From: Loxodes magnus
Lineage: Eukaryota; Ciliophora; Karyorelictea; Loxodida; Loxodidae
Direction of reading: 5' to 3'
Length of the DNA stretch: 64,000 nucleotides
Assembly: GCA_946699065.1 (NCBI GenBank)
Contig: CAMPDV010000253.1
Location: forward strand, 1-64,000
The notes under the pieces were generated by a model. The model saw nothing but the letters and a program-made list of their open reading frames with translations, made no database searches and was not told the DNA's origin. Positions 1,345-64,000 of this stretch are shown here, one piece after another (position 1 is the stretch's first letter; each line of letters opens with the position of its first letter). The position numbers and the translations under genes are program-made.

Positions 1345-4300
1345 TCAATATCTGTAATGACTCTTTCTTTCCTATTTCTTTTCCTCTTCTAAATAGAAAT
1401 TCTGAGTTGACTCATTTAGTTCATTTGATTCATTAAATATAAGTTCAGACATACTTGGTTCTAAATTTGTGTTTTACTAATTTTCTTAACTACTATTTAA
1501 AAACTCATTTGGCTTTTTTTTAAGTTAGACAGCTTCAGAAATCAGATTAGTTTGAGATTTATTTTTATGAAGAGTGAACTAATACTATTTTTGTTATTTA
1601 TTATGAAATTATTTATAATTCTCATATTTTTTTATAAAATTTGGTTAAAAATAACTAGGATCATTATCATTTGCTGCCTCATTTTCTAAGTCTTCTATTA
1701 TTATTTCTTTAACTTGCTGGTGACTAGCATTATATCGTTTAGATTTTAACTTTTAACATTTTACTTTAACAGTTTTTAAAGGTTTTTATTAGATTTAATT
1801 GTTACACTAATTGCTTCTAGATAAATTCTTAAAATCTCTATATTTTTTAACAAATTACTTAACTCTTTATTGTCAATACTTTAGATATGTTTATCTAAAG
1901 TTCAAAGCTATCTATTAATAAAGTTCTATCAAGCTACTGTCATGTAAAAGTAACCATTCCATTTCCTTTAGGCATTAAACAATCTAGTTTTATTTAAATA
2001 AACTACCTAACTTTTTACTGTGTTTGTTTTATTACTCTAAGTCATAATATTGAATCTAGTCATAGTTACTATTCTATTTTTTTCTGTTCATTAATAAAAA
2101 GTTTTAATTTTCTAGTTGCTCCTATCGTTTATTCTCTACAGTGTCTCATCTATTAACTATATCATTTAATTAAACTCTATTTTTTAGCCATGCTAAGTAA
2201 AAATATCATTTGAGTTATTCAAGCTAAATCTTTTAACCAAACTCTATTATAATCTAACGAAGCCAGTTTAAGATAAAGTAACCATTTATGGCAACTAAAA
2301 GCAAGAATATTATAACATCAATAATTGGATATTTCTAACCAGATTCAAAATATATTCCACAGTATAAAATAAATGTTGAAATAAGCAAATAATTTAGTTC
2401 TAGACTATTTAGTTCCTTTTTAGCAAAAGGTTTATACTTTATTTGAAGCATAATACATACTATCAAGACTAGAATTAAGCACCAAAACTAAAATATTATA
2501 GTAGAATTTTATAGGAAAATGAATATCAAGGAAATCAAAAATTTTTCATACATCTTAACGAACTCTCAGTAATAGAATTTTTCTTTATAGCCTATAGTTA
2601 AGAATCCATACATAGATTTAATTTAGACTGATTTAATAATCTTTCCATTTCTGTATAGATATAAGAATACAATGAAGGGAATTAGTACTCCGTATATTAA
2701 AAATCCTGGCAATGCAAAACAAATAATGAATTGAAGATGTTTTCCCTTCCAGCACTCAATGTCAGTATATGCATTCAAAACATAATAATCGTTAGATATT
2801 TCCTTACAGCTGAAAGCACTAAAAACAGTCAGTATTAGATTAGTGTTAACCTAAAAATATAAAACACTCATTGCAGTAACAAATACAGACTTACTAAACA
2901 ACTTTCTAGCGAGTAACGAATAGAGCAATAGAAGCACAACGCAAGAAATTAGTATTATTAAAGGTAACGCTAATGTATCTATTACTTTATAATAATATCT
3001 TCTATCCCCTTCATAGTAGACGCAATCAAATCTATAAATAGTAGAAGTAGTAGCTATAATTTATCCATTAACTTAAAACAATTCTTTTATTGCATCTGGT
3101 CAGTTGAATTTAAAGTTTTAAATTAATACTGAAAATTGCATATAGTTGGTAAGTAGTTTGAAATAGACTCCTATATTTGATTCTTTCTATTTAGCTGATT
3201 TTAGTGTATAACTAACTAGATATATAGTATACACTATTAATATAGCAAATATGAAAGCAGCTATTATTAAACTCTATTTTTTACTTAAGCATTTTTAGCA
3301 TTTATTATTCCCATCTTTTGTTCAGTCTTACTCACAAACATCACATAAGATTCCTTTATATCCTTTTGCACAGTTTCCTGATCATTAAATATCTTGATAA
3401 TACTCATATCTTTATGTTTATTCTGTGACTTTTAAGTATTTTTCTACTTAAATTTAACTTAATTAAGTTCCCAAGCAAGAAATTTTATTAGGGCATTAGA
3501 GAATACTTTCTGAAGTGAAGTTTTCTCTTCAGTATCCTTGAATAGGTAATACTAGATCACTTCCATAACACTTTGCTCCCTTCATACATTCTTTACACGA
3601 TTTATCACTTTAACCTAAGGAATATTATCCCTATAAACAATTTTAACATCATATTCCATCAACTAAGATCTAACCACGTAAGCATCCTGAGATGTTCATA
3701 TTAATTTAAATTATATTTTAGGAACTTTAACTCACAAGCATATTTCCATCTTCAATAGCATCAGTTTGCAGATTTAATTTGATTGAGCTTCCTGGTTTAA
3801 CTTTAATTATAATGCCTTTAATATAAAAAATTCCAGATTCTGCTTATATTCTAGTTTTGCCAGCAAGTTCTGCATTATCATTATTCTTTTCAGCAGGATA
3901 GACAGAGACAACTGAACTATTATCAGTTTTTACTACTTATCCAAAATTATCTGTAATTAATATAGTTTATTCAGGGATTTCGAAACCTGGTAATTAATTT
4001 TTTAATTCTCTTTCTCTTTGCGAATCATTCCCGATACAATAGCCCAAAATATCCGAGACCGAACTACTTGCTAGCTAAAAAGCAAAGCTGGCAAAATTAT
4101 TACCATAGTAAGCAGAATTATTATAATATAAGGAGCATGATTAAATATCCTATAAATCAGGAATAAAAGTAGGAATAGCTCCTTGTAAAGAAATAGCACC
4201 TCCTTCTCCATATTAATTAGTTATTTTATTACTTATGAACTAATTGCATTCAAGAGTGTAATTACAACTTCATTACTTTTCGCAAATCAGCCTTAAAGCT

Positions 4301-7300
4301 CCTCCTTTAGAATGTAACTCTTCTCCTTGAACTTAATTTTTTAAAAATAAGTTGTTTTAGAATGTAATATTAGCATTTTAAGCATATCCTACACCTCCAT
4401 GCTGGGATGCACTGCATTTTTCGAACTAATTGTTATAAAAAAAATAGTTTTTCTATGTTTTATCATTAATGATAACAAAGCAAGATCCAATTTTTGCTTT
4501 TTATATTGAGCATCTGCAATTCTACATGTTCAGCTAGGAATTTAAAGAATAAATTGCACTTCCATAATTTTTGTCACTTTCACCATGAATGAATTAAGTG
4601 TTACTCAAATTAATCTAGCCATTATCATTAAATATAGCTGTATTTATATAACCACTAAGAAGACAATTTTACATAATCATTCAAGATTGCTCTTTCATGA
4701 AAATAATAGTTCCATAATCAGTAGAACTAACGTTATAAAATTAGATATTTTACAAGGTTAAGTTAGATTAAAAAGCTTGTATAAGTCCTTAATTAGAGTT
4801 CATATCTGAAAATTAAGATTCAGTTAAAGTTAAATTTGATTTAGTTAAATGAAATGCGCTTCCTATATCTCCGCTGGCATTATAAAATTAAGAGTTACTT
4901 ATTGTTATTTAAGCATAAAAATCGCTCATAATAAACGTTCCTGTTTGTGCTTTTTGACTTTTAAAAGTTGATTTGTCAATGTAAACTATTGAATCTCATA
5001 TCATGAATCCTGAAGTTTATTCCTAAACTTGATTTTAATAGAACTAAACGTCCTAGAGTTTTAGTTAGCTTTTATAAATGAAAATAATAGAGTTTTACCC
5101 TTAGTTATTACTAAGGGTAGTGTTTCTAATCTAGGAAAAATGTTCACTTTATGACGTTCATAAACCAATAATACTCATTGAGAAAGCTGTATTATTGTAT
5201 ATTATAGATTAGTCTAAATTAAAGGATGAACTCTATATATTTAAGAAAGCACTTTCCTTAGCTAAGTTATTAATAAACTATGAGTTTTAAGCAATTAAAT
5301 TACTTCCTAACTATAGATACCCTACTCCTCCACTATTTACTGCTTAATTAAGAGTGCAAAATACATAATTTAAATATAAATAAGTCTACTGGATATAGAA
5401 AACTGCTCCATATTTTGCTATATTATTACTAACTTTTGACTTATATATTTAAATACTAGAATTGTAAGCATCTAGCAACCCTCCAGCGTTAACTCTGTTT
5501 GCATAACATTATATTGTTTAAAATTATGCTTAAACTGACGATAGAGAAAGTAAAGTTCCTTATTTAGCTGAATTATTATAAAAGGTGCTATTAATGATTA
5601 AGAAGAAATCCTAGTTTGCTTCAATTAAACTTCCAATATTATTTTAGAAAATACAATCGATTATTGAATAGGTAGATTATTCAGAATATAATGCTACTCC
5701 TTTTGATCCTATGTTCTTTTCGAACATTGTTTGATAAATAAAAGAATTTGAGTACTTTTAAAAAACAGTAAATCCCTTTCCAATAAGGTTTTAGATAATA
5801 GTGCAATTTAGTAAAGAGAAGTTAAAGTTAAAGACTTCTACTAAAGCTCCATTACTTATAATGTTTTATTTAATAATAGTTTTTATTATTTCTACTTTAG
5901 TATTTTTAGTCTCTATGATTCCATAATTTGCTACATTTTTGTGAAAGTCATTTCCTTTAATAATTAACGAGTTCGCTGTTAGAGAATATATGACAGAAAA
6001 AGCTTTATTTTTCAAAAACTAGCAATCTTGTAAATATATTAATCTAGAATTGCTTGTTTCTACAGAACTTCCACTTAAAGAAGTATTATTTTAGAAGCTT
6101 ACATCTATAAAATCTCCATCTGATTGAATTAAAAGCATAATTGAACCTTAAAATGCCAGGTTATTATCTACTTAAGCTTATGTTATATTTAGATAAGATT
6201 ATAGTAAATACATTACCGCTGCATTAGTAGCATTATTGCTAATTAGTTGAATTGAAGCTATCGAAATGTTAGTATTTTAAGCGAATATAAATCCTCCATA
6301 AGCTCAAGCTAAGTTTTCAATAATGAGGCTATTTTGAATCTAAGCACTTGATTAGTCTAAATATAAGTAAGCTCCATAATAAGCTTTATTTATCTTAGCT
6401 GTTAGATTTTTTACAACAAATTAACTTTTCTCTGAGTAGATAGCTCCTCCCTAAATTTTAGCCAAGTTATAAAAACTTTGAATATTTTAAATTTAAAATG
6501 TAGATTTATAACTGTAAATAAAAGCTCCTTTAACTGCTGAGTTGTTATGAGCTCATACATTTATAATTTCAGCTTATAGTAAATTAAAAAAAATAATTCC
6601 ATTTTAGGATGCAATGTTTTGTTACAAATCAATGTCTTGCAATGATAACTATATTTATGAAAAATATCCCACACTTCCTTAATCTGCTTAATTGTACTCA
6701 AAATCACAATTATTTATTTCAAAAATCTTAGAATCTCTAGTTTAAATGAAAAACACTCCTCCTTTTAGAAAAGCTTCATTTTCAGAAAAATGACTATCTT
6801 CTAATCGAGTAAAATTAGATTACTATAAACATGCGAAACCTCCATTATCTGATTTAGCTTTATTTTTTGAAGCTTCTAAATTTTGAATTTATTCTATTTA
6901 TGAATATAATAAGTGCAAAGCTCCGCCATTATATAATTCAGCTATATTTTCAAAAAATTTGCAATTTTAGAATATTTTAATGCTAGTATGCAAAGTATTT
7001 AAAACTCCACCGTACTTTAAAGCATAATTTTTAATAAAAATGCTATTTTCAATTAGATAGACTTATGATATTTCTATATGAACACTTCCACCTGAATCAA
7101 GAGCTATGTTTTAATCAAATAAATTTGAAAACATTGTTTCAATTTTACTTTCTATAATAAAGAAAACTCCTCCTTTCATTTCTGCCTTGTTTGATATAAA
7201 TTAATTATCATCAATCGCTGATATAGTTGATTTTTACAAAAAGCAAAACCCTCCATTTTATGCTAAATTATTAATAGCAGTTATATTTCTAATCTATTCC

Positions 7301-9240
7301 AAATTCGATTCTTTTAAAAATATACCTCCACCTGACTAATCTTATGCTTTATTATCCATAAAAATGTTGTTAGTGATTGAAATAACGTTAAGATTGTCTG
7401 CATATATAGCTCCCCCACTAGAAGCATAATTCTGACTAAATAAATTATTTTCTATTTAATCTGTATAAACCAATTAAAAATAAATACTTCCTCCTTAGTT
7501 AGAAACTCAATTTTAATAGAAAATATTATTAGAAATAACCTTTATCTCGCTAAATTAAAAGAGTAAACTCCCTCCAAACTTGAATGCATAATTATTTTGA
7601 AATAAACAGTTAAGCATTTAGAAGATGTTACTTCCTACAATAATTAGAGCTCCTCCACTTTCAGTAACTCAGTTTTCTATAAATGAGGTATTTATAATCT
7701 AATAAATGTAACCTGTTTAAAAGTAAATAGTACCATATAAAGCCTTATTCTAATAGAAATAACTATTCTCCATAGAAATTATTTAGCTTTCAATAAAAAG
7801 GCAAGCGCTTCCCTAAATATTAGCAAAGTTTTAAAGGAATTAGATATTCTACATATAGTCTATTGTTAAGTTATAGGAATATAAGAATCCTCCACAATAT
7901 GCCTCATTTTTATCTATTAATATATTTTAAAATTAATTTATTCTTGCATTCAAAGCATACAAAGCTCCTCCATTTTATGCCTTATTGCTGATAAAGGAGC
8001 AGTCTTGAATTTATCAAATATTGCTTTATTAAATATAAATAGATCCTCCCATAGAACTTACTCAATTTTTAATGAATGAGCTATTTTATATAGTTTGTAC
8101 GGTAGAATCTCATAAATATATAATTCCCCCATCGATAAAAGCGTAATTTTACTAAAATAAGGAGTTTTATATTTAAATAACTTCACTCTTAAAAATAAAC
8201 AAAACGCCTCCATTATAGGCTAAATTGTCAGAAAAAAGGCATTCATCTATACTTAACTTTGAATAATTAGAATAAATAATTCCATCTCTTTAGTAATTAA
8301 GATTTCAAATAAACTAACTTTTAATTAGCTCTAAAGATGACATATTTAAAAATAATAAAGTAAAATCATTAACTCAATTTTACTAAAATAAAGTTTTATA
8401 TACTTGCAAATTGGAACTATATAAGCCAAATTAGTTGTATGCTAAATTTCCTTTAAATAAGGAATTATTCACTACAATATTACTTTAAATACTATAGATA
8501 AATCCTTCTTTATTTCACTCAAAGTTGAAATAATTTATTTTAATATTTGAATCAGTAGAGGTTAAGAAGGCTCCTTTTTCAAAAACTTCACATTAGGTTA
8601 TATTCACATTATTTAAAGCTAAATTAGAGTTTTGAATTGAGATATATTCTTATAACTTAAATCTAAGTGATGTTATAATTAAGTTTGTCAGCGTTAAACT
8701 TGAGCTAATAGCAATTATAAATTTATTGTTTCTATAAGATAAGCAATTTGTAAACAAGCAAAATCAATAATCACCCTCAATTATAACGTTCTATAGTTCC
8801 ATAATGTCACTTTATAGACTAAAAAATTTAAAAGGGTCTGCAACAAAAATTGTAGAAACTGAACTACTTAAGCACATTATTTCAACACCTGGATTATTTT
8901 AGCAGTCAAATGATTCTATCTTAAAAGTTTTAGAACCATTTCAGGGTTAGTTTTGTCTTATAATTTCGCATTCTTCTTCTGGAGAGGAATTCTGGGAACA
9001 TTTAAGATAATGATAATGAGGAGAAATTATAACTTTGAAATGATAAGATAATAGCAGATTTTGAAATGCATCAACTAAATTAACATATGGATAATAAATA
9101 CTGCCATTCTCAACATAATCTCCTAATAAATCTTTTATATAAGGTGATGTAACATATCTAACATCTTCATCAGTTTTGGAAAGAAAAAAAAGAAGGAATA
9201 ATATATTTGCGAGAAGAGAGTTCGGAAGAGTCATTCTCAT
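1345..9240 (-). CDS. giant beta-helix repeat multi-pass membrane protein, copy 1
   Basis: From ATG at 9240 to TGA at 1345-1347 is exactly 2,632 codons in one frame when TAA/TAG are Gln and internal TGA is Trp; no intron is needed. The start is followed by a hydrophobic signal-peptide-like stretch (residues 4-20). Most of the ectodomain (about residues 100-1850) is a run of coils of roughly 24 residues, each with an Asn-x-Ala/Val turn then a Gly-Gly-Ala/Ser/Gly-Ile-Tyr-like signature, as in polymorphic outer-membrane-protein or pectate-lyase-like right-handed beta-helices. Near residue 1950 is a Cys-rich module (GYKGILCDVC, then CQKC), then about 7-8 hydrophobic helices (about 1985-2330) with a YYWEF motif near residue 2227, whose Trp is TGA. 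A charged cytoplasmic tail of about 300 residues ends in a Glu/Lys-rich stretch. This layout is known among ciliate surface membrane proteins; ligand and function are unknown. Its paralogue lies at 52704-60662. Confidence 0.88.
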
Positions 9241-20496: not shown

Positions 20497-21171
20497 TTTA
20501 TTTTTAATGATAAAACAATTAACTTATGCTTTTTCAATGCTTTAACTTAGATTCCTTACTTTTTATTTCAACTCTTTTCTAGTTTAAATTTCAGTAATTA
20601 GTTCCCTTATCTACATATTTAATCTTTTTTATATAAATCAAATGGAAAAATAATCTGATAAAGCAAATTATTGTAATCGTAAATACACTAAAGTCGAATG
20701 GACTAAGCAAGAAGATGATCTCATCGAAAACTTGATAGTAAGCAAGTTCAGTAAAAAGATAAACTGATGCGAAATTGCTAGATAACTTAATACACTCTAT
20801 CATAACTATGAAGTTAGAATAGGAAGATAATGCTAGAAGAGATGAATAAAAGTACTAGTACCTCTCAAATCTCTTGCATGAACAGGTTCAGACGATAAGT
20901 AGTTACTGTAGATTTGGTAAAAATATAAATACTTTTCTGATAAGTTATATTTAGATTGTGGAAAAAACTTTCCTCAATACAGTCAAGGATAAATATAAGT
21001 GAAGTTAAGAGAATTATTGAAAGAAACTAAAAAAGAAGAGAGTGTTAGAGAAGAGAAAGAGTAGGGATTAAGAAAGATGAGAAAGGTAAATGATATGAGT
21101 AATTTGTGTTTATGCTTAAGCAAAGTATGACTTAAACTTTAAACTTTACAATTTTTTATTTCTTTAAATTT
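20497..21171 (+). repeat. left arm of Myb-bearing large inverted repeat
   Basis: These 675 bases recur as the reverse complement at 26649-27323, also 675 bases, with very few differences. Similarity starts abruptly near 20497 (a run ending in ...TTTTTAATGATAAAAC) and ends near 21171 (...TTTCTTTAAATTT). Each arm contains one complete Myb gene pointing inwards. I see no obvious target-site duplication. Confidence 0.9.
20642..21130 (+). CDS. two-repeat Myb/SANT DNA-binding protein, left copy
   Basis: ATG at 20642 to TGA at 21128-21130 gives 162 residues with TAA/TAG as Gln and internal TGA as Trp. Residues about 15-70 form a first Myb repeat: VEWTKQEDDLIE, then INWCEIARQL, then GRQCQKRW. A second repeat begins LAWTGSDDKQLLQIWQKY. 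The QC-x-x-RW and W-T-x-x-(D/E)D signatures are diagnostic of R2R3-type Myb domains, which bind DNA in the nucleus through the third helix of each repeat. Three of the Trp residues, including that of QKRW and that opening repeat 2, are TGA, which strongly supports TGA as Trp. The C-terminal part is a Lys/Glu-rich tail. It has a near-identical inverted twin at 26690-27178. It could be a host transcription factor caught in the palindrome or the DNA-binding protein of a mobile element; the sequence does not decide. Confidence 0.88.
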
Positions 21172-26648: not shown

Positions 26649-27323
26649 AAATTTAAAGAAATTAAAAATTGTAAAGTTTAAAGTTTAAGTCATACTTTGC
26701 TTAAGCATAAACACAAATTACTCATATCATTTACCTTTCTCATCTTTCTTAATCCCTACTCTTTCTCTTCTCTAACACTCTCTTCTTTTTTAGTTTCTTT
26801 CAATAATTCTCTTAACTTCACTTATATTTATCCTTGACTGTATTGAGGAAAGTTTTTTCCACAATCTAAATATAACTTATCAGAAAAGTATTTATATTTT
26901 TACCAAATCTACAGTAACTACTTATCGTCTGAACCTGTTCATGCAAGAGATTTGAGAGGTACTAGTACTTTTATTCATCTCTTCTAGCATTATCTTCCTA
27001 TTCTAACTTCATAGTTATGATAGAGTGTATTAAGTTATCTAGCAATTTCGCATCAGTTTATCTTTTTACTGAACTTGCTTACTATCAAGTTTTCGATGAG
27101 ATCATCTTCTTGCTTAGTCCATTCGACTTTAGTGTATTTACGATTACAATGATTTGCTTTATCAGATTATTTTTCCATTTGATTTATATAAAAAAGAATA
27201 AATATGTAGATAAGGGAACTAATTACTGAAATTTAAACTAGAAAAGAGTTGAAATAAAAAGTAAGGAATCTAAGTTAAAGCATTGTAAAAGCATAAGTTA
27301 ATTGTTTTATCATTAAAAATAAA
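26649..27323 (-). repeat. right arm of Myb-bearing large inverted repeat
   Basis: This is the reverse complement of 20497-21171, of equal length (675 bases) and nearly identical sequence. That implies a recent duplication or ongoing gene conversion between the arms. Flanking sequence diverges immediately outside both arms. Confidence 0.9.
26690..27178 (-). CDS. two-repeat Myb/SANT DNA-binding protein, right copy
   Basis: ATG at 27178 to TGA at 26690-26692, 489 bases, the same length as the left copy. The translation matches the left copy through both Myb repeats; the one clear change I see is Tyr to His at residue 10, before the first repeat. The same three TGA codons at Myb tryptophans are kept. 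Both copies appear intact, and they face each other across the AT-rich spacer. Either both are functional or arm-to-arm conversion keeps them alike. Confidence 0.86.
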
Positions 27324-41054: not shown

Positions 41055-41098
41055 TAAGATGTAAGCAAGATTAAAAAACTATTTAAAAACAATTACTA

Positions 41099-42978: not shown

Positions 42979-43050
42979 TGTTCTTACTGAGATCCGAACT
43001 CAGATCATTGGATTTAGAGTCCAAGGTGCTCGCCTTTACACCATAAGAGC
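42979..43050 (-). tRNA. tRNA-Gln with anticodon CUA (reads UAG)
   Basis: The minus strand folds as a 72-base cloverleaf. The D stem is GTGT/GCAC with the GG of the D loop. The anticodon stem is TTGGA/TCCAA with loop CTCTAAA, giving anticodon CUA. The T arm is CTGAG-TTCGGAT-CTCAG, and the acceptor is GCTCTTA against TAAGAAC with one C.A mismatch at position 2-71. A T run follows. The D arm and anticodon loop resemble the ciliate glutamine suppressor tRNAs, and the tRNA fits use of TAG as Gln in the genes here. The identity as Gln rather than another amino acid is inferred from the genetic code and resemblance to that tRNA family. The acceptor mismatch could mean a mildly degenerate copy. Confidence 0.85.
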
Positions 43051-45225: not shown

Positions 45226-46081
45226 ATAATGATAATAATTGAATATTCGAAAGAGAGAATAAACTTATTATGTATAATATAGATACGAATAATTTTAATG
45301 GTTAAATAGATTACTGTTTTAGAAAGTTAAAGCAAAATTATTTTTATCTAAATATCAAGTTTTTAAATTATTAATAAAAAATGTAAATATTAAAAACTAA
45401 AAAATATTCAAATTTTAAGTGAAAATTAAAATAAGTTTGAAAGGTCTATCACTTATGATAAGTTAAATAAATTTAAATTAAAAAATTAAGAAAATACATA
45501 TAAAATTAAAAAAAACATTTACTGAAATAGTTTTCTTATGAAAAATTAAAATTTCATCAAGCTCAAAATTTATAAGATTAAACATAAATTCATTTATAGT
45601 TTAAAACTCGAGAACTCAAAATAAAATTAAATAGAGATAAAAGCATTTAAAATTGTTACATTTATAAAAAAGTTGAATTTAAGCAAAACTCTCTATAAAA
45701 AAATTTTAGATTTTAATATGATGCTGATCTACCAGAGTAAGCAAGATAATTCATTCTAAATTTTTTATTCCTTTCTAAATTCTCTAATTTTATTAATTTT
45801 TTCTGAGTTACGTACATTTAAAAAATTCATTTTGATCAATAGATTTGAAATCAATAAAAGTATGTAAAGTAAGATTTAAATTTAAAATCTAACTTTCAGA
45901 TAAAAAGTTTATGTAATTTATACTCTTAAAAATATTTTCCTTTCAAAGTTTAACATGATTATCATTTTTTTAAGGGTTAAATAATAAACTATTAAGTAAT
46001 TGATTCACCTACATAGTTTTAATTTTAAATAAAAATCGAAGAATAAAAAGCATCTAAGTTAAATTTAATTAAATTTATAGA

Positions 46082-47115
46082 AAAAGAGTTTTTTGACGTC
46101 TTCAATTACAAGAATTGCTTCCTTCAATTATAGATGTTATTAGATTTTTTTTTAAATTGTCTTGATCTCATCATTTTTCTTTAATTACTCCTTCTTTCTA
46201 CTCATCTTTAGCTTTTTCCTTTTTTGCTTTTTCCATTTTTAGAAAATCAAGTTTCTTGTCGTTGGTTTCTTGTGAAATAATTTGATTTATAAATCTAATA
46301 TTCCAATTTTAACCTTGAAAATGAGTTTATATATTCTTGATCATATAGTATGAGACGCCTTAAGTCATAATTCCCGATCTTTTCCGATAGTCGATCCCTT
46401 TATATTAAAATAGTATATACATTTAAAGATATGCTCGAAAGTCTCATACTCTCCACACATACAGTGAAAATTATTAAAAATTACCAAATTGCTTAGTATG
46501 TATTTTAGCTGTCTTCATTCTCATAGATTTTTTAGTAGCTGCATTATAGAAATGTCGTTGCATTTTGTCTTTTATATGCTTATTAAAAATTTTAAGGCTA
46601 ATATTATAGTATTAACTCTGTAGATCGATAATGTTAAGGTCTGATAATTGCTAAACTTAATCATAATATTTAAATCTTTTGTTCAGATATTAATGAAAAG
46701 AGAGTCTGTTGTTGATAATGGAAAATCAATTCTTACTTATTTTATTTTATAATAGAATCTAAAGAATTATATAGCCAAAATATGCTTAAAAAGTAATCAA
46801 TTCAGGTCTTTATAGCATGACTCATTAAATGTTGCTGCTATTACTTAATAAGCTTTTCTTTAAATCAATCTCATGCTTGATTCAATTCTGTTCAGAACTC
46901 AAATTTCTCTTTTTGAATACTTCATGGTACTAAGTCTTCTCTGTATTCTGCTTTGAATAAAGAAAAAGTTAGCTTAAAGTTTTAAAATTTCAAGAAGTTA
47001 CATTTTTATATCTCATCAGTTAAAAGATAGATTTTTATATTGTAGCTATATATTTGAACGCAACTTCTTTGCAATGGAGATTCAAATTCTTCTTATAATG
47101 TAGAATAATCCTTAA
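46082..47115 (-). mobile_element. 5'-truncated, internally deleted LINE copy
   Basis: On the minus strand this matches the 35-41 kb LINE from about its 40000 position to its 3' end, including the CMCGEYE zinc motif and the terminal stem-loop. A stretch of about 150 bases present in the long copy (about 40630-40760) is missing here, just before the zinc motif. The ORF is heavily diverged, and two adjacent TGA codons stand where the long copy has TGA TAA. The copy lies tail-to-tail with the long LINE, 4.9 kb apart. Truncation from the 5' side is the usual outcome of incomplete target-primed reverse transcription. Confidence 0.85.
46096..46137 (-). other. LINE 3'-end stem-loop, copy 2
   Basis: Counterpart of the stem-loop at 41099-41140. 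Its arms have several base changes, and part of the pairing is kept as G.U pairs. This suggests that the fold as well as the sequence has been retained. Confidence 0.5.
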
Positions 47116-47963
47116 GCATCTAAAATTATAAAATTACTAAATATATCTTAAATATCTTAAATGTCTTTTATTAACAATTTTTTTAAGCAACTAAGCAAGT
47201 TATATTTATCAATTTAAGCTTATTTAGGTTTTTAAATACTATCACTTTTTTTTATATTCTATAAGTATTTCTTTTTGTTAGTTAGATTATAAGTTCAATT
47301 TTGTATATCATTTTGAATTTTTCTTACTATTCTTACATATATATTTGAATATCACAGTTCTCATGCAAGCCAAGTGTAAAAGAGATTCTATTTTTGTATC
47401 TCTTCTATTAGTTACTTATATTTTGAATTATATATAAAGATAGGCACTGATTTGCATATAATTACTATAATTTCTTTCTTAGAAAGTTATCAAGATAATA
47501 TTCTCCTTAGATAGTTTAAAATTACATTTATACTTAATTAGTATATTTATGTATTTAGCACTGCTTTAAATATTACTTTACTTTATAATAATGGATTTAT
47601 CTTTATTCTTTAAAGATCTTAATAATCAAAATTAAAGCAAAAAGTAAATGATCTAAATATCTTATAATCAGGAATAGAAAAAGTAGCATTAATGCATTGT
47701 AATTAATAAATGATAAGCTTAATATAGTCTAATAATAAAGATAAAAGTTATAGCATTCTCCATAAATTATAAACTTAAATTACCTATCAAATTATATTAA
47801 TTTTAATATATAGCTATAGAAAATCCTAATTTAGTTATAAATTACAACTGCTAAACTTGCTATTTTATCAAAGTTATAAAAATGTGATATAGAATTAATA
47901 AAAATAGAGCTTATATTTTTTTATGAGCTTCTCTACTACTTTTTAAAAATTCAAAATAGATCT
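47116..47963. other. AT-rich interval without recognised gene
   Basis: Background-like sequence between the truncated LINE and the next candidate gene. No motif or repeat is recognised. Confidence 0.45.
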
Positions 47964-51072: not shown

Positions 51073-51111
51073 AATTTTAAGATTTTTACTTGTTATAATA
51101 ATAACGAAATT
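51073..51111 (+). repeat. direct repeat flanking ORF1 copy C, left
   Basis: About 39 bases with the core TTTTTACTTGTTATAATAAT then AACGAAATT. They match 51975-52010 in the same orientation, apart from a 3-base gap and a few changes. The pair brackets the inverted ORF1 copy C. Confidence 0.6.
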
Positions 51112-51124
51112 AAAATGTTTAACA

Positions 51125-51970
51125 GTGCCAATCTGGACACCGTTTAAAATAAGTTGTTTTATCAGCAACACTTCTCATCATTCTTGACTTTCTAATGAAA
51201 TTATCTTCACTAAGGTCTTCTCAGTTTCTTTGATTTCTTGTTCTTATTATTTCAAAAGGTACTTCACATCATTTTCTTCTGTAAATATCTCCATGCTAGT
51301 TGCAATAGAGCCTCTAGTATTTTTCTTATTATTTACGCCAAAATTTTCTCTTGAAATTCTAAAATTTTTAGCAATTCTTGTACAAATGTCACTTACTCTT
51401 ACAGTAGTAGCATTTCTTCCTTACTTATCTGATTGGTTTTCGATTTATAACCTCTTTTTATTCTATCTCCATCTAATTTGTTTAATTAGTTATGTTTGTG
51501 CTAATATTCTTTTGCTTAATAAACCCCAACTCTTGTTTTTATACGATATTTTCAAGCCTTGCTGTTTCTTATCTATGTTCAGTTTAAATGTTCCAATATG
51601 CTTGGAGTTCCCTTTCTTAACTAATAATTCTAATCTCTAAGTTATCTTATCCAAGCGATAATAAGTTTCTTAGTTCTTAATTTTCCTACTTAAGCACTTT
51701 AATCTCTTCCTAGAGATTGGATATTTCTAATACTAACTGTTAAATATTGATTTCCTTTTTAATTATCTTTGATGGAAGTTCTTTTCCTGTTATTATATTA
51801 GATTCCTTTCTTTTTATTACTTTAGGAGGTGTTTATTATAGTTATTAGATTCTTTATTAGTTTTGTAAGTGAGGAGAAGAAGACTCTTGATACCTTTTTT
51901 ATGCCTGCTTTTTCTCTAGAGCTTTTTTCTCTTCTTTGCTCAAGAAAAAGCCGGGAACAAGATTTGAAGA
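51125..51970 (-). CDS. LINE ORF1 zinc-knuckle protein, copy C (5' end unclear)
   Basis: On the minus strand a frame of about 280 codons is coherent from near 51970. It runs through a Lys/Glu-rich start (SKEEKKALEKKQAQKRYQE), a long leucine-zipper-like coiled coil (EIKVLKQENQELRNLL) and a second helical stretch. Near 51412 is an intact CX2CX4HX4C knuckle, CYYCKSKWHLYKNC, whose Trp is TGA. After the knuckle is a basic region (FIRKSRMMRSV). No ATG is found at the N-terminus, so the copy is 5'-truncated or starts elsewhere. The long plus-strand frame at 51230-51640 is the antisense shadow of this gene. Confidence 0.65.
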
Positions 51971-51974
51971 CTCT

Positions 51975-52010
51975 ATTTTTATAATTTTTACTTGTTATAA
52001 AAACGAAATT
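51975..52010 (+). repeat. direct repeat flanking ORF1 copy C, right
   Basis: Second member of the direct repeat pair with 51073-51111, lying just upstream (in transcription terms) of the inverted ORF1 copy C. Confidence 0.6.
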
Positions 52011-52440: not shown

Positions 52441-52703
52441 TTTTCTAATTAAGGTTTTAAAATAAATTCCAATTATCCAATTATAGTTTTTAGGGTTAGA
52501 AATTTAAATATTATATTGGATGCCAATATATAGAAGAATGTAATTTTAGGAAATTGAGAAAATTGATTTTTTAAAGCTTAAAAATTGTTTATATCTTTAT
52601 CTAAACCAAAAAATTCAGAAAATAAAAAGAATCGAAAAGTTTTGTTTTATTATTTGCTTTAAATATTTGATAAAGTAATTGAAATTGATTATTAAATTTA
52701 AAA

Positions 52704-55700
52704 TCAATGTTTCATCTTTCTATTATGCTTCCTTTCCTCTTCTAAATATAAATTCTAACTTTATTCACCTAAATCACTTAAGTCATTATATATAAACTCA
52801 GAAACGTGGATTTCTGAATTAGAGTTTTAAAAATATTCCTAGTTAGTATTTTCTAGCTCCCATGCTATTTTTTTAGGCTATAAGGCTCAGTAATTTAGCT
52901 TATTTTAAATTTTATTTTTGAGGTTAAAGAGTTAAGATTAAATTTCTTCTTTATTATATATTTATGTTTTTTCCTCAGACTTCTATATAAAAGTAGATCT
53001 AGAATCTTTTAACTCATTTGATATCTCATTTTATAAGTCTTCTATAATAATTTCCTTATCTTATTCTTGATTTGCATTATATTTATTTACTTATAAAGGA
53101 TAAGTTTCTACTTTAGCAGTTTAAAAAGGTTTACATAAGATCTAATTATCAAAGCGGTTTTTATTAGAGAAACTCTTAAAATATCTATATTTTTTAGTGA
53201 ATAGCTTAACTCTTTATTTTCAATATTTTTGTTAAGTTAATATAAAGTTCATATTTATCTATTAGTAAAGCTCTATCAAACTGCTGTCTAGTAAAAGCGA
53301 TCATTCCAATTCCTTTAGGCACTTTACTGTCTTTGGTTATTGAAGCGAATTATATAACTTTTTAGTGTATTTATTATCTTAGTCTAAGTCATAGTAATCA
53401 TTTTGCTCTTAGTATCCGTTCCTTAATTTTCTATTTATTAATGATATTTTCCTTTTTTCTATTTTCTCTTATTTTATCTTCTCTGCCTCACTCCATTTAG
53501 TTACTATATCATTTAGTTAAACTCTATTTTTAAAGCAGGTTAAGTAAAAATATCATTTGAGTGAATCAAACTAAATATCTTAACCAAACTCTATTATAAT
53601 CTAGATAAGTCAGTTTAATATAAAGTAGCCATTTATAATAACAAGAAGTAGGAATATTATAACATCTATTATAGGATATTTCTAACCAGATTCAAAATAT
53701 ATTCCACAGTATAAGATAAATGTTGAAATAAGCAAATAATTTAGCTCTAAGCTATTTAGTTCCTTTTTCACATAAGGTTTATACTTTATCTGAAGTATAA
53801 TACATACTATCAAAACTAGAATTAGGCACCAAAACTAAAATATTATAGTAGAGTTTTATAAGAAAATGAATATCAAGGAGATCGCAAACTTCTCGTACAT
53901 CTTAACGAATTCTCAGTAATAAAACTGTTCTTTATACCCTAGAGTTAGAAATCCAAACATGCATTTGATAAAGACAGATTTAATAATGCTTCTATTTCTA
54001 TATAAATACATTACTACAACAAAAGGAATTAGAACTCCATAAATTAAAAATCCTGGTAATGCAAAACAAAGAATAAACTAAAGATGTTTTCCCTTTCAGC
54101 ATTCAATATCTGTATATGCATTCAAAACATAATGATCATTTGATATTTCCTTACAGCTAAATGCACTAAAAACAGTAAGTATTAAATTAGTGTTTAACTA
54201 AAAATATGTAACACTCATTATAGTTATAAATACTGATTTATTAATTAACTTTCTGGTAAATAACGAAGTAAGCAGTAGAAACAGAACGCATGTAATTAAA
54301 ATTATTAAAGGTAATCCTAACGTATATGCTACTTTATTATAGTATCTTCTATCTCCTTCATAGTAGATGCAATCAAATCCAAAAATAGCAGAAGTGCTGG
54401 CTATAAATTATCCATTAACTTAAAACAATTGTTTTATTGCATCTGGTCAGTTGAATTTAAAGTTTTATATTAATACCGAAAATTGCATGTAGTTAGTAAG
54501 TATTTTGAAGTAAACTCCTAGATAAGTTTCTTTCTATTAGGCTGATTTTAGTGTATATCAAACTAGATATATAATATACACTATAAATATAGCAAATATG
54601 AAAGCAGCTATTATTAAACTCTATTTTTTACTTAAGCATTTTTAGCATTTGTTATTCCCATCTTTTGTTCAGTCTTACTCGCAAACATCACATAGTATTC
54701 CTTTGTATCCTTTTGCGCAACTACCTTATCATTTAATACCTTTATAATATTCTTATCTTTATGTTTATTCTGTAATTCTTAAGTATTTTTAAACTTATAA
54801 TTAACTTAAATAAATTCCCAAGCAAGATTACTGATTAGGACATTTTAAAATACTTTCTGAAGTAAGATTTTATCTTCAATATCCTTTAACAGGTACTACT
54901 AGATCGCTTCCATAGCACCTAGCTCCCTTCATACATTCTTTACAAGATTTATCGCTTTAATCTAAGGAATATTATCCCTGTAAACAATTTTAGCATCATA
55001 TTCCATCAACTAAGATCTAGCCACGTAAGCAACCTGAGATGTTCATATTTACTTCAATTATATTTTAGGAACTTTAACTCCCAAACACATTTCCATCTTC
55101 AATTGTTTCAGTTTTTAGGTTTATTTTGATTGAACTTCCTGGTTTAGCTTTAGCAGTAATGTTTGCTATATAAAAAACTCCAGATTCTGCTTATATTCTT
55201 GTTTTACCTGCAAGTTCTGCATTATCTTTATTCTCATTTACAGGATAGACAGAAACAACTGAATTATTATCAGTTTTTACTACTTATCCAAAATTATCTG
55301 TAGTGAATATAGTCTATTCAGGGATTTCGAAACCTGGTAGTTAACTTTTTAATTCTCTTTAAGAATCATTCCTATTACAATAACCTAAAACATCTGAACT
55401 ACTTGCAAGCTTAAAAGCAAAGGATGCAAAATTATTTCCATAGTAAGCAGAATTATTCTAGTATAATGAGCAAGATTAATCATCCTATAAATCAGGAATA
55501 AAAGTAGGAATGGCCCCTTACAAAGAAATAGCACCTCCTTCTCCAAATTTATTAGTTATTTTATTACTTATGAACTAATTGTATTCAAATGTGTAATTAC
55601 AACTTCATTACTTTTCACAAGTCAGCCTTAAAGCTCCACCTTTAGAGAGAGACTAGTTTCCCTGAACCTAATTATCTTTAAACAAGTTTTTTTGGAATGT

Positions 55701-58700
55701 AATATTAGCATTTTAAGCATATCCTACTACTCCATGCTAGGATGCCTTACATTTTTCAAACTAGTTGTTATCGAATAAGTAGTAGTTCATTTATGGCTTA
55801 TCGTTAATGATAACAAAGCAAGAGCCAATATTTGCTTTTTACATTGAGCAACTACAATTCTAAATATTAAGCCCTGAATTTAAAGAATAAATTGCACTTC
55901 CAAAATATTTATCGCTTTCACCATAAATGAATTAGGTGTTACTCAAATTAATCTAGCCATTATCATTGAATACAGCTGTATTTATATAACTACTAAGAAG
56001 ACAATTTTGCATAATCATCCAAGATTATTCTTTCATGAAAATAATAGTTCCATAATCAGTTGAATTTATGTTTTAAAATTTAACTTTTTGTATAGTTAAA
56101 CTAGATTTAAGAGCATGAATAAGTCCCTAATTAGAGCTAATATCTGAAAATGTAGATTCAATTAAGGCTAAATTTGATTTAGTTAAATGAAATGCGCCTC
56201 CTTTATCTCCACTAGCATTATAAAATTAGGAGTTACTTATTGTTATTTAAGCTTAAAAATCGCTCATAATAAACGTTCCTGTTTGACCTTTTTGATTCTT
56301 AAAAGTTGACTTGTCAATATTAACTATTGAGTTTCATATCATAAGTCCAGAGGTTTATTCCTAAACTTAATTTTGATAGAATTAAACGTTCTAGAGCTTT
56401 AGTTAGCTTTTATAAATGAAAATAATAGAGTTTTATCCTTAGTTATTACTAAGAATAGTGCTACATATCTAAGATACTTTTTCATTTTAAGATATTCATA
56501 AACCAATAATGCCCATTGAAAGAGCTGTATTATTGTATATAATTGATTAGTCTAAATTAAAGGATGAGCTTTGCACATTTAAGAAAGCACTTTCATGTGC
56601 TGAGTTATTAATAAACTATGATCTTTATGCCTTGAAATTACTTTCTAACATAAGATATCCTACACCTCCACTACTTATTGCTTAATTAAGAGTATAAAAC
56701 ACATAATTGAAGTATAAATAAGTCTATTGGATATAAAAAACTGCTCCATACTTTGCTGTATTATTACCAATTCTTGAATTATATATTTCGATATTTGAAC
56801 TATAAGCATCTAACAAACCTCCAGCATACACTCTGTTTTAATAGCAATTGATGATATAAATTTTAGCATTTACTTACTAGAGTGAAAGTAAAGTTGCTTA
56901 ATCTGCTGAATTATTAAAAAAGTTGCTGTTGATAATAAAAATGAAGTCTTAAGTGGCTTCAATCAAACTTCCTATATTTTTCTAGAACAGACAATCAATT
57001 ATTAAATAGGTCGATTATTCTGACTATATAGCTACTCCTTTAGATTCTATATTCTCTTCAAGCCTTATTTACCAAATTAGAGATTTAGAGTACTTTTAAG
57101 AAACAGCGAAACCTTTTCCAATTTGATTTTAGATAATAGAGCAATTAAGTAAATAGAAGTTAAAGTTAAAGACTTCTATTAAAGCTCCATTACTAATAAG
57201 GTTTTACTTAATATTAGTTTCTATTATTACTACTTAAACATTCTTAGTTTCTATTACTCCATAACTTGCTATATTTTTGTAAAATTAACTTCCTTTAATA
57301 AATAATTAGTTTACTGTCAGAGAGTATAAGATAGAAAAAGCTTCATTATTAAAAAATTCGCAGTTTGCCAGATACATAATTTTAGAACTACTTGATTCTA
57401 CAGAACTGCCACTTTTGGAAGTATTATTTTAGAATATTACGTCTATTAAACTTGCTTCTGTTTGCATAAAAACCATAATTGAACCTTAATCAGCTTAGTT
57501 ATTGAGTAATTAACTTTGAGCTAAAGTTAGATAAGATTATAGTAAATACATAACTGCTGCACTAGTAGCATTATTTCTTTTAATTTCAGTTGAAGTTATT
57601 TAAATGTTAGAATTTTAAGCAAATATAAATCCTCCGTAGAATGAAGCTAAGTTTTCAGTAATAAGACTGTTCTTAATCTAAACATCCGATTGATCTGAAT
57701 ATAGACAAGCTCCATACTATGCTTTATTCATCATAGCTGTTAGAATTTATATTTTAAGTTAACTTTTCTCTGAGTAAATAAATCCTCCCTGGATTGTGGC
57801 CTCGTTTTGAAGGCTCTAAATATTTTTCATTTATACAGCTGAATTATAGCTGTAAATAAAAGTACCTTTAGCTGCTTTGTTGCTATGTACTTGTATATTA
57901 AAGAATTCAGCTCTAAGTAGATTAATAAATATTATCCCATTTTAGGATGCAAGGTTTTATTTCAAGTATACATCCTGTAATTTTAGCTATATTTGTGAAA
58001 AATATCCAGCACTTCCTTAATTCGCGTAATTTGACTCAAATTCACAATTTGCTATAAGAGAATTCTAAGTATCATTAGCTTAGACGAAAAACGCTCCTCC
58101 TTTTAGAAAAGCTGAATTTTCAGTAAAATGGCTATCTTCTAATAGAGTAAAACTAGATTACTACAAGCAAGCAAACCCTCCATTTTCTTTCTTAGCTTCA
58201 TTTTTAAAAGCAGAGCAATTCTTAATTTATTCTATTTATGATTATAAAAAGAACAAGGCTCCACCATTATATAATCAAGCGATATTTCCAATAAATTAGC
58301 AATTTTATAACATTCCAATGTTAGTTAGGAAAACATTTAAAGCTCCTCCATATTAAGAAGCATTATTATTAATGAACATGTTATTTTAAATTAAATCAAC
58401 TTACGAGCTTTCCATATAGACACTTCCCCCTGAGTCTTTAGCTGAGTTATAACTAAATATGTTAGAAGAAATGTTTTTAATATTATTTTAAAGCAAAAAG
58501 AATGCTCCACCTTTCAAAATTGCTTAATTGGACTTGAATTCATTTCCCATTATTTTATTTATAGTTGATTGCATAGAAAAGCAAAATCCTCCATTTTAAT
58601 TTGCATTATTTTCTGTAAAATTTGAGTTAAAAATTTAATTCACGAACGAATCGAGTAGAAATATAGCTCCCCCACTAAAGGCTTAATTATGATAAAATTA

Positions 58701-60662
58701 ATTATTTTCTATTAGTTCAATTTAGGTATTTTGGAGATAAACACTTCCTCCTTAATTTGAGACTCTATTATATTAAAATTTAACATTAGAAATAGTTTTT
58801 ATTTAACTATTATAAGCAGCTAAAGCACCTCCTGAATTAAAAATGCTATTGTTATGAAAACTAGAATCTTGAAGGTAAGTTATTTGTGAATTGTTTAAAT
58901 ACATAAATCCTCCACTTCCTTTCGGAGCTGCATTTTAACTAGCAGTGATGTTAGAAATGAGACTTATATTTGTATAATATATAAATAAAGCTCCACCATT
59001 TTAGTATCTTGATTCGTTATCTATAAAGGAACAGTTAGATATCTAAGTAATGCTACTACTTTTAGCAGAGATAGCTCCTCCATTTTAAAATGCTTAGTTA
59101 TTTGCAATTAAGCTATTTATTATTTAGTTGACAGTGTTTTCTTCAAAGTAGATACTACCCTAATTAGCAATGTTATTCTAAACTTTATTATTTTCAAAGG
59201 AATCTATTGTACTCTAGAAAAAGGCGCAAGCACTTCCATTAAAATCTGCTTTATTTTCTCAAATGAAAGCGTTCTGTAAAATATTAATTTAAGATTATAA
59301 AGAAAACAAGAATCCTCCATTTTAACTTGCATTATTTAAGCTTGCTTTTATATTTGAAATTAAAGTTATATTTGATTTCCAAAAATGCAAAGCACTTCCA
59401 TTAACTCCTGTATTATTAAAGAAAGTGCAGTTTTTTATTTGTTATATACTACTTTCGAAAGCATAAATAGCTCCCCCGTTGAATATAGCTTAATTTTATA
59501 TAAAAGAGTTGTTTTAGCAAATCTGCATTATAGAATTGTCTAAATATATATCTCCACCATTATAGCTAGCTTTATTAGACAATCATATCGAATTCTGTAT
59601 CTTTACATTTTTGCTTTCTTAAACATACAAAACGCCTCCATTTTCTGCTTTATTTAAAGAAAAGATGCATTCATCTATGCTTAACTATGATTAAGCAGAA
59701 TAGATAGTTCCATTTCCAAATTCATTTAGATTTTCAATAAACTAACTATGAAATACTTCTAAGGATGATAAATTTAAGAATATTGCTTATTATACAAAAG
59801 TATTTTACTTTATTATAGAGTTTTATATTTTCAAAGTGGATTAAATTAATACTCATTAAGATAACGATATTTTGTTGTTTAGCACAGAAGAATCAATTAC
59901 AGTTACATTACTTTTGATACTCTAGATCAATCCTCCATAATTATTTTCAAAGGTACAGTTATTCGTAAAAATTTCTGATTAGTTTGCTGTTATGAAATAT
60001 CCATCAAATTCAGCTGAGTTTTAGCTAATGTTCACACTCTTTAAAGTTAAAGTTGAGTTGTGAATTGAGATATATTTTTAAAAGTCAAATGTAAGATTGC
60101 TTAATTATGAGTTTGTAATAGTTAAATTTGAGTTTAAAGCCTTTATAAGCGTTTTTTCAAATTAAAAAATGCAGTCCTCAAAACTACAAAAATCAATATC
60201 AGCTGCAAGTATCACATCCTTAAATTCAGCTGTATCATTTTATAGACCAATAAAAGTATAAGGATCTTGAAAGAAAATTATAGAGGCTAAACTATCTAAG
60301 CACATTACTTAAGTATTTGGATTTTTATTACAGTCATAAGATTCTATTTTGAAAAACAATGAACCATTTCAATCTTTATTTTATCTTAAAACTTCGCAAT
60401 CTTCTCTTAATACTAAATTATTCTAGCAGCTTAAAGGATGCTTATGAGAAGACAATATAATTCTGTATTATTAATTCGGAATTAATTTTATAAATACTGC
60501 TTATAACTTTGTATATGGATAATTTATTGTGCCATCCTCTAAAGTATAACCTACTTTTAATTTTGTATTGGGTGATGTAACATATATAGCAGTCTCAAAA
60601 GACTAGGCTTAAGAAACAAGAATGATCAAAATAGCTGTGAGAAGAAAACTTGGTTGACTCAT
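52704..60662 (-). CDS. giant beta-helix repeat multi-pass membrane protein, copy 2
   Basis: ATG at 60662 to TGA at 52704-52706 is exactly 2,653 codons in one frame. The N-terminus (MSQPSFLLTAILIILVSQAQ) is a good signal peptide. The ectodomain is the same ~24-residue Gly-Gly beta-helix repeat as copy 1. It is followed by the GYKGILCDVC/CQKC module, the multi-helix membrane domain with LPGFLIYG and YYWEF motifs, and a charged tail ending in a Glu/Lys-rich stretch. The copies align along their length. The conserved CWKGKH Trp is TGG in copy 1 but TGA here, and several TGA codons are shared, for example in the FNWPDAIKELF segment. The protein is presumably at the cell or cortical surface. Divergence is greatest in the repeats and least in the membrane domain, as expected for a surface family under diversifying pressure. 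Confidence 0.88.
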
Positions 60663-61915: not shown

Positions 61916-62437
61916 ATGTCTTTAATAGACATAACTCAAGTTAATTTATTTGAGTATCTTAATAATGAAGTTTTATATCTTTCTTTTTATATGAATCTAA
62001 TAAATAAAAAGTATTTTACAAATTTAAATAGAAAAGCTAAGAAATGTAGTTATTGAACTAATAGAAAATTCATAAGAAAGGAATATATTTTTTTATTTTT
62101 AGAGTGCTTGCTCTTTTTTGCTTGATTTGCCATCTCAAGAGTACTTTTAGCAATTCCAATTTTATTTCTAGCTATTATATCGGCAAAATAATTCATAAAA
62201 ATCTTAATCTCACTGCATCTACTAATATTGTCAGATGGAAAATGAGTAGACACTGAAGCTAATCTCTTAGATTAAATTGCAAATAAACTGATTCAATCCA
62301 CCACTAAGGAAAGCAAAAAACTATTAGATAAAATTAGAACTTTTTAGAATTTAATCAATCTTACACGACAGCCTTTACTTTTAATGCTGCTTATATACAA
62401 TCAATCTTTTACTATATATTAAGAAGCAAACTAATGA
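61916..62437 (+). CDS. candidate small multi-pass membrane protein
   Basis: ATG at 61916 to TGA at 62435-62437 gives 173 residues; the frame is open further upstream to 61844 and beyond. Residues about 60-115 are strongly hydrophobic (LECLLFFAWFAISRVLLAIP then ILFLAIISA), probably two membrane helices. A helical Asp/Lys/Leu region follows (LLDQIANKLIQSTTKESKKL). Three internal TGA would be Trp. No family is recognised. It would be convergent with the gene ending at 62626. The opposite strand over 62050-62440 also has a protein-like frame with a possible membrane helix, so the strand is not certain. Confidence 0.42.
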
Positions 62438-62625
62438 ATGCTTTTAGCTTTTTTAAGAAAAGTTATATCTTCTCCATATAAATATATCTAAGTAATTATA
62501 ATGATTTAATAATAAGGGAGATATAGCAAAAATAATTATTTATATCTTGAAGATTATAGAATTGTTATTTATCAATGTAAGCTTAAAAGTAAAATATATA
62601 TCAAAGAATTAAATTATCCTTAATT

Positions 62626-64000
62626 TCATGAAGTATATAACTATTCTATAATCCTTTTTGTAATAAAATGCTTGCTATAAATTTAAAATTATAACAGAGA
62701 GATTTAAAGATTTAATTTTGATTATATAGCAACTTAGACTTATGAAAATTGTATATTGATATTTAATTATTTTAATTAAGCAGCCTATTAAAGTTTATAT
62801 AGTAGATTGTTTTTTTAGGTTAGCTTCATAATCATTATATTTTTCTTAGTAAAATACCTTTAAAATATATCATATATTTAACTAAGAAATTTAGCAAAAA
62901 TTTCGGAATTGACTATATATCTATTTTTTAAATTTAGAGCAACTTATATTTCATCTTAAAAATTTTAAAATTATATAATTTTCTAGACTTTATGCCTCAA
63001 ATTTTTTTCAAGGGCATTGATAAAAAGATAGGCAAAGAGGAAAGTATATCTTTATTTCTTTTCTAAGGATATGATTTTATGTTTTTCTAAATTAAATTAA
63101 ATAAAACTAAAATAGTGATGAGATCAGATAAATTTTATATTTTATGGACTTTTATTAATTTCCTTGCTTGTGTAAAATTTTTCAGGTATAGCAAGATAGT
63201 GCTGCTTCTAATTTAACATTTCCTGATTAACTTTATCCTGAAATCTTGATATACTTAATCTTTTATAATTTATCTATATTTTAAATATTTTCTATTATGC
63301 TATATATAAATCAAGCTTTATTTCATTATCATAGGATTCTAAAAATCAGATGATTATTTTATTTTCTTAAATTCCATCTTAATTATGTAAATTTACTATA
63401 TCTAAAACTGAAGCTAGCTTAATAGCTGACTTCATGGTATTATTAAGCCTGTATAGGTATTTTATTCTATATTTAAGATATTAAGAATCTCTAAGTAAAT
63501 AAGATAACTTTTAATTTTTATAATAGACGCTTATATCCATTTATTTAACTTTATAATCTAAGAATCAACTTCCCTTTACTAAAGAAATATTTGATGTTCT
63601 TATCTAAATCTTATTTCTTATGTATATCTATTCATTTTGAAAAGCTTCTTTAATATAATAAGAAGAATTTATGCGATATCATTAAAAGCTGATATAAGTA
63701 GATGTCTATTAGTGGTATTTTCTAGCAATTTTTCATAAAGTCATAATTATAATTGAATAATCGATATTTTCCGAGTAGTTTAAGCTAACTACCTTATAAA
63801 ATATCTACAATAATTTTATTATATCTCTACTATTAATTAAGTGATTTGTATATGTCAATAGTTATATTAACTCTTAGGTTAAACTAATAGAAATTATAAT
63901 GATTAAGGTACTGTTAAAATCATTAAGTTGCTTTAAAATCTTTCTAGAAATAATCTTAGCTAAATTAAAAAATTCTAGATTATACTTTTTTTAATTTAAA
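62626..64000 (-). CDS. partial hypothetical protein running off the right edge
   Basis: A minus-strand frame enters from the window edge and continues for about 458 codons to TGA at 62626-62628. It is coherent throughout, for example DILQGSQLKLLGKYRLFNYN, SKGSWFLDYKVKQMDISVYY, SAIKLASVLDIVNLHNQDG and FQDKVNQEMLNQKQHYLAIP. It is Lys/Gln/Leu-rich and largely helical, with no obvious membrane span and no recognised domain. Five or six internal TGA would be Trp. The N-terminal part lies outside the window. The evenness of composition and sustained protein-like character make it one of the better-supported unrecognised genes here, although no homologue confirms it. Confidence 0.55.

Follow-up and report, generated by a model that had tools for sequence, protein, structure and literature searches.

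Sense meanings for standard stop codons in a 64-kb stretch of probable ciliate DNA, with TGA as the prevailing tryptophan codon of two giant genes

In the 64-kb stretch of DNA analysed here (the window, by which the whole stretch is meant), two giant paralogous genes, a Myb gene and a long interspersed nuclear element (LINE) become readable once the standard stop codons are given sense: TGA is a tryptophan codon and TAA a glutamine codon, while TAG, the weakest of the three assignments, can be shown in part to mean glutamine as well. TGA likely also terminates genes, as the composition at the giant-gene ends and the codon content before four gene ends suggest. The window is in all probability nuclear ciliate DNA that uses NCBI code 27 or one very near it, presumably from a Loxodes-type karyorelict, and this code is already known. 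It corresponds to table 27, and the one quantity that stands out and merits follow-up is the dominance of TGA among tryptophan codons. The window is poor in GC (~22%, with 7,105 C and 6,691 G) and, under the standard stop codons, does not hold a single open reading frame (ORF) of at least 150 amino acids over its 64 kb. A six-frame self-comparison, in which all codons were treated as sense, brings out three repeated units, namely the giant paralogues (at ~1.3-9.2 and 52.7-60.7 kb) and two inverted pairs, one around 20.5 and 26.6 kb that corresponds to the Myb gene, the other formed by the 3' parts of LINE copies at ~40-41 and 46-47 kb.

The two giants are both on the minus strand. Gene A occupies 1345..9240, with in-frame ATG codons at 9240 and 9234, and contains 25 sense TGA plus a terminal TGA at 1345-1347; gene B occupies 52704..60662, probably starts at the ATG at 60662, and contains 21 sense TGA plus a terminal TGA at 52704-52706. 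Their open frames are 2,630 and 2,653 codons long, end codon included. An earlier reading of the same DNA (the preliminary description), in which the recoding was first proposed, drew its boundaries at 1345, which is precisely the terminal TGA of A, and at 62628, which has to be moved to the likely start of B, for neither paralogue conservation nor a Pfam domain is found from 60662 onward to 62628. Read by eye, both genes begin with a hydrophobic stretch and continue through long Asn-/Gly-rich repeats into Cys-rich and membrane-like regions. Pfam recognises Beta_helix in B (E = 1.2e-34); in A there is no Beta_helix match and a weak match to DUF7630 is the only one listed. Within the repeats of A, a loop N-TGA-V (7507-8376, minus strand) has TGA four times, at 8376, 8064, 7671 and 7509, the corresponding codons of B being ACT, TAA, TAA and AGC, so that TGA is not conserved there.

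In one frame, both genes show purifying selection. In five 600-column blocks of their alignment (A 2433-5429), mismatches at codon positions 1, 2 and 3 range over 0.09-0.16, 0.06-0.08 and 0.18-0.26, respectively, and this pattern, with position 2 the most conserved and position 3 the least, fixes both the minus strand and the frame. Eleven of the 13 gaps within the coding part of A are multiples of three, and the other two (of 2 and 1 bases, 19 bases apart) sum to three. The ratio of nonsynonymous to synonymous divergence (dN/dS) is 0.28 for the 1,445 codon pairs of the conserved half (A 1348-5700), comes to 0.43 across all 2,618 pairs, and rises to 0.74 in the repeats at A 7400-9230. Introns that remove the TGA codons, which the preliminary description had named as one way in which its reading could fail, are disfavoured because the frame stays open for more than 2,600 codons and because TGA is no commoner in possible GT..AG spans (of 15-30 bases) than elsewhere: these cover 9 of the 26 TGA in A and 7 of the 22 in B (terminal codons included) versus 0.43-0.44 of all codons.

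That TGA means tryptophan follows from its frame-specific exchange with TGG between the paralogues and from the Myb profile. At the 19 sites of the conserved half where either paralogue has TGA in the coding frame, the pairs are TGA/TGA 11 times, TGA/TGG five times, TGA/TAA never and something else three times (one of which is the terminal TGA of B), whereas the same DNA, read in its five remaining frames, has 178 TGA sites with one TGA/TGG and 25 TGA/TAA. The concentration of TGA/TGG in the coding frame (5/19 vs 1/178) has a Fisher p of 2.8e-5. Tryptophan sites as a whole are retained between the paralogues (17/22) at a rate comparable to that of cysteine (33/41). A TGG/TGA split had been claimed for two motifs of the membrane-like part and holds for one of them: the tryptophan of CWKGKH is TGG in A (2749..2751, minus strand) and TGA in B (54096-54098), while that of YYWEF is TGA in both (2568 and 53915).

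The Myb gene (copy 1, 20642..21130, plus strand, ending with a TGA at 21128-21130) has TGA at three Myb tryptophan positions, two of which, QKRW (20843) and LAWTG (20879), had been spotted earlier, the third being at 20765. When ten residues were tried for TGA, the Myb_DNA-bind_6 profile gave 34.2 bits with Trp, 27.9 with Phe, 25.7 with Tyr and at most 17.6 with the other residues listed (Glu gave no listed match at E <= 1). The gene is indeed present twice, yet its second copy (26690..27178, minus strand) is a recent inverted duplicate identical to the first at 488 of 489 coding bases, and with only that one base differing the two must be treated as one gene and not as two witnesses. These results leave next to no room for code 6, in which TAA and TAG are Gln, TGA only stops and the TGA-bearing genes are dead. 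The decay visible in the LINE and the poor conservation of TGA in the 5' half of the giants would suit dead genes, but not a frame kept open for more than 2,600 codons with dN/dS of 0.28 in its conserved half and 0.43 overall, nor TGA/TGG exchange concentrated in that frame, nor TGA at three positions of both Myb copies where the profile wants Trp; 46 sense TGA are found in two genes under selection.

The LINE contributes two further TGA at the places noted earlier, the first (37763) at the tryptophan of INETW in an endonuclease domain (37676..38305, plus strand, frame 2; Exo_endo_phos_2, 35.8 bits) and the second (39240) in the motif NWLPISL, previously given as NW-x-PISL, of a reverse transcriptase (RT) domain (RVT_1, 39219..39992, plus strand, frame 0). 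It is here that some of the points weighing against tryptophan arise. The margin of Trp over Arg for TGA in RVT_1 is only 1.0 bit (91.3 vs 90.3), and neither endonuclease profile gives preference to Trp, PF03372 scoring 29.5 with Arg vs 28.1 and PF14529 37.1 with Gly vs 35.8. In the giants, the absence of TGA/TAA from the coding frame does not reach significance by itself (p = 0.14), and the divergent 5' half (A 5701-9234) has, among 16 TGA sites, one TGA/TGA, no TGA/TGG and three TGA/TAA, the partners of its TGA codons not being Trp-like. This mismatch may reflect relaxed constraint in the repeats, because dN/dS reaches 0.74 there. Homologues, which the preliminary description had named as another possible source of refutation, could be consulted as paralogues and profiles, and these agree for the most part with the proposed meanings, with the exception of the 5' half of the giants, the endonuclease and the beta-helix.

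How often TGA is used in this capacity is best seen in the giants, in which 46 sense TGA face 11 TGG, next to 281 TAA, 100 TAG, 64 CAA and 16 CAG. TGA is thus their majority tryptophan codon (46/57, 81%) and makes up 0.87% of all their codons (46/5,281). Its share among tryptophan codons, 0.81, is close to the 0.74-0.80 share of the A-ending member in the pairs TAA/TAG, CAA/CAG, AAA/AAG, GAA/GAG and TTA/TTG.

The assignment of TAA to glutamine rests on the RT profile. With TAA and TAG both read as Gln, RVT_1 scores 91.3 bits, the next best of the ten residues tried being Ser with 84.3; when TAA is varied alone, Gln leads each of four alternatives by at least 5.7 bits (Ser, the next, has 85.6), and when TAG is varied alone it leads Glu by only 0.2 bits (91.3 vs 91.1). 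For TAG, the case is made by its exchange with TAA and by a tRNA gene with anticodon CTA, the cognate of UAG, which sits between the two LINE copies (42979..43050, minus strand; Rfam tRNA, 55.5 bits). Its acceptor stem has one mismatch, C-A at the second pair, and its folding is unremarkable by itself (z-score -1.58, with 16 of 200 shuffles folding equally well). ARAGORN labels it tRNA-Pyl, a label that stems from the anticodon, and its body and anticodon loop resemble those of eukaryotic tRNA-Gln. Other comparisons pull the opposite way or are blunt. The beta-helix profile scores 120.4 with TAA/TAG read as Gln, slightly below Lys (123.0) and Glu (122.3); of the other profile checks that had been called for, Myb points to Trp for TGA and RT to Gln for TAA. 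The exchange between TAR (TAA or TAG) and CAR (CAA or CAG) shows no preference for the coding frame (16/145 vs 21/168 in another frame). BLOSUM scores, summed in the giants over partners that are ordinary codons, come out in favour of Gln overall for both codons, TAG in the divergent half favouring Lys by 2, but these sums count for little since, over the whole pair, they misname two of five known codons (CAA as Lys and AAA as Asn, with GAA, TAT and TCA right).

Were TAA and TAG to mean glutamate, with UGA as Trp and UAA also as a stop, the code would be of the Blastocrithidia type (NCBI 31), which we regard as extremely improbable. Under it, RVT_1 falls by 8.5 bits to 82.8 (TAG alone hardly separating Glu from Gln), the BLOSUM sums, for what a test with two of five known codons misnamed is worth, put Gln above Glu for TAA (76 vs 41) as well as TAG (45 vs 16), and the CTA tRNA has the presumably Gln-like body just described. 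Its appeal comes from the beta-helix profile, 1.9 bits higher with Glu, from an in-frame TAA that closely follows all four gene ends, and from a UGA frequency of 0.72-0.85% of codons in Blastocrithidia (PMC12153298), close to the 0.87% of the giants. The sense meanings of the preliminary description, TGA as Trp and TAA/TAG as Gln, hence find support in paralogue exchange, in the Myb and RT profiles and in the CTA tRNA, least firmly for TAG.

The same description held that TGA terminates genes too, which is plausible from the fall in GC and the runs of codons free of TAA and TGA, though an in-frame TAA follows each of the four ends within one to four codons. At the terminal TGA, GC drops from 0.28 in the last 50 bases to 0.14 thereafter in A, and from 0.26 to 0.12 in B. 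The runs that precede the TGA are 42 codons in A, 18 in B, 43 in Myb and 73 in the LINE, where the probable terminal TGA of ORF2 is at 41052..41054 (plus strand) with TAA directly after; equally long runs occur at fractions of 0.068, 0.302, 0.065 and 0.023 of positions, respectively, which combine to p = 0.008 (0.005 if B is left out). The signal weakens when counted over the final 20 codons before these four ends, where depletion of TGA had been suggested as a check: TGA is absent throughout (0.7 expected), TAA occurs once, in B (4.3 expected in total, P(<=1) = 0.07), and TAG occurs once each in A, B and the LINE and not in Myb. It should be kept in mind that all four ends were picked for their TGA, in the preliminary description as in the present analysis.

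What weighs against a terminating TGA is equally what would support a Condylostoma-like code (NCBI 28), in which UAA and UAG also stop near transcript ends, so that the real gene ends may be the downstream TAA codons and the preceding TGA may be the last tryptophan. In-frame TAA follows the putative terminal TGA at codon +2 in A, +2 in B, +4 in Myb and +1 in the LINE (at 1339-1347, 52698-52706, 21128-21142 and 41052-41057, where they could be back-up or true stops), and when the DNA is aligned A's terminal TGA pairs with a TAA in B, B's own TGA being two codons earlier and the next in-frame TAA common to both paralogues. In Loxodes magnus, moreover, UAA is depleted upstream of the stop just as UGA is (PMC11441545). 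A nearby TAA is nevertheless no strong sign of a TAA stop, because 7.8% of triplets are TAA in those non-coding stretches that were tested, so that it could often arise by chance, and because only four ends, chosen at TGA, are at hand; nor is TAG scarce near the ends. We consider code 28 unlikely, and TGA the likely terminator, although TAA may serve in that role. Two candidate tests of termination were set aside, the Myb copies as too alike and the LINE copies on account of a short post-TGA stretch and an 11-base deletion. Two papers decided nothing about the ends: PMC6879139, which is on tandem stops, and PMC6935857, the available portion of which has karyorelicts with UGA as a stop and UAR (UAA and UAG) as Gln and does not name UGA as sense.

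The most likely mechanism would have three components: (i) UAA and UAG would be read as Gln by cognate suppressor tRNA-Gln, the CUA one being encoded in the window, (ii) UGA would be read as Trp by default, as an ordinary tryptophan codon and (iii) UGA would also stop translation where eRF1 recognises it, which it would do only near the transcript end. What we infer here is which tRNA reads UGA, that termination depends on position, and to which taxonomic group the DNA belongs.

As for the repeated elements themselves, the Myb duplication is inverted and spans 675 bases (20497-21171 on the plus strand, 26649-27323 on the minus strand) with four differences, one of them within the 489 coding bases. 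Identity stops sharply 41 bases past the TGA and ~145 bases ahead of the ATG, like a copied transcript-sized unit; no trace of poly(A) was seen in the alignment of the duplicates. The LINE had been said to make sense under the recoding, and its domains and TGA positions bear this out, but the element is not intact. It changes frame between endonuclease and RT (38700-38770, plus strand) and reads WADY at the position of the RT motif [FY]ADD, so that this copy looks dead; the second copy of the family, a decayed 3' part (46066..47120, minus strand), is frameshifted at several places. Because the LINE is broken, it weighs less as evidence than the giants and Myb. Its RT matched ten distinct sequences for which structures have been solved, most of them LINE-1 ORF2 and R2 proteins, and found no relatives in viral contigs. 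The reported TGA inside a zinc knuckle is there as well, at 51389..51391 (minus strand) in the CCHC-like knuckle CYYCKSKWHLYKNC, within a probable LINE ORF1 (frame 52600 minus); by eye, this stretch (51080-52000) has zinc knuckles and a part that is both Gln/Glu-rich and coiled-coil-like, and it gave no Pfam match in minus-strand frames. A short CWYC knuckle-like frame near the tRNA (44746-44757, plus strand) is possibly a further retroelement remnant.

In the rest of the window, the region 12001-28000 has a GC content of just 14.7-17.9% and, by a crude codon score, scant coding signal outside the two Myb copies; this simple codon-usage score proved unreliable for choosing frames and was dropped for that use. 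Pfam gave only weak matches and no reliable family in the remaining stretches scanned, which comprise the window apart from 12.5-20.4, 21.5-26.4 and 27.5-29.5 kb on both strands, 9.3-12.5 kb on the plus strand, 29.5-31 kb on the minus strand, most of the minus strand at 36-43 kb and, at the giants and Myb copies, the strand that does not carry the gene. The segment 2302-3801 of gene A had no relatives in viral contigs, GTDB genomes or phages.

The chances are about even that UGA has become the normal Trp codon (~80% of Trp) in a genome where it is also a stop. In that case, nearly all Trp sites would be potential termination sites, a far heavier load of ambiguity than in Condylostoma or Parduczia, where UGA makes up 0.042% and 0.120% of codons, respectively (PMC4967479), and very strong position-dependent control by eRF1 would be required together with an efficient UGA-reading tRNA-Trp. 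If TGA also stops and the usage is genome-wide, the published model, which makes translation the default and leaves it to the transcript end to set termination, would be pushed to its limit. That a code without a dedicated stop codon can be read from a single 64-kb stretch amounts to an independent confirmation drawn purely from sequence. It also carries a practical warning, namely that standard stop codons leave no ORF of at least 150 amino acids in the window.

Set against known systems, the window shares with table 28 (Condylostoma magnum) the sense use of all three codons and the same amino acids, while there UAA and UAG also stop, a role that they may or may not have here, and UGA usage is 0.042% (PMC4967479) as against 0.87% in the giants. 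With table 31 (Blastocrithidia) it shares UGA as Trp at comparable frequency, whereas UAR is Glu and UAA a stop there (PMC12153298) and the RT profile favours Gln here; even the highest UGA share of conserved Trp codons in Blastocrithidia, 48.5% (PMC12153298), compares with 81% in the two giants. A non-ciliate alveolate with a code of the Amoebophrya type, three codons in sense use and contextual stops, is a very unlikely source, since ~22% GC, intronless giant beta-helix genes and LINEs would suit ciliates better; gene types and composition point away from a dinoflagellate relative, which is what Amoebophrya is. It deserves mention in that Amoebophrya sp. ex Karlodinium veneficum translates all three stops, likely with UAR as Gln and UGA as Trp, and has tRNAs cognate to UAA and UAG (PMC12005148). 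The closest likeness is to table 27 (Parduczia, Loxodes), with UAA/UAG as Gln, UGA as Trp or stop, AT-rich 3' ends and, from four ends only, a hint of UGA and UAA scarcity before the stop. Parduczia differs in its UGA usage (0.120% of codons, PMC4967479, vs 0.87% in the giants); for Loxodes, no UGA share was found in the portions of the literature available to us, which is not to say that none exists. In Loxodes magnus, code 27 is used and UGA is sense when it stands well away from the poly(A) tail, depletion ~20 codons before the stop affects UGA and UAA and spares UAG, GC is 33.5% in coding sequences and 18.6% in 3' untranslated regions, introns have a mode of 17 bp, and there are ~2,700 copies of RVT_1 and 1,200 of Exo_endo_phos_2 (PMC11441545). 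The giants are lower in GC (26-27%, from codon-position values) than these coding sequences, but the codon meanings are the same, both LINE domains are present and the gene ends lean alike; the context-dependent karyorelict code invoked in the preliminary description fits the features published for Loxodes (PMC11441545).

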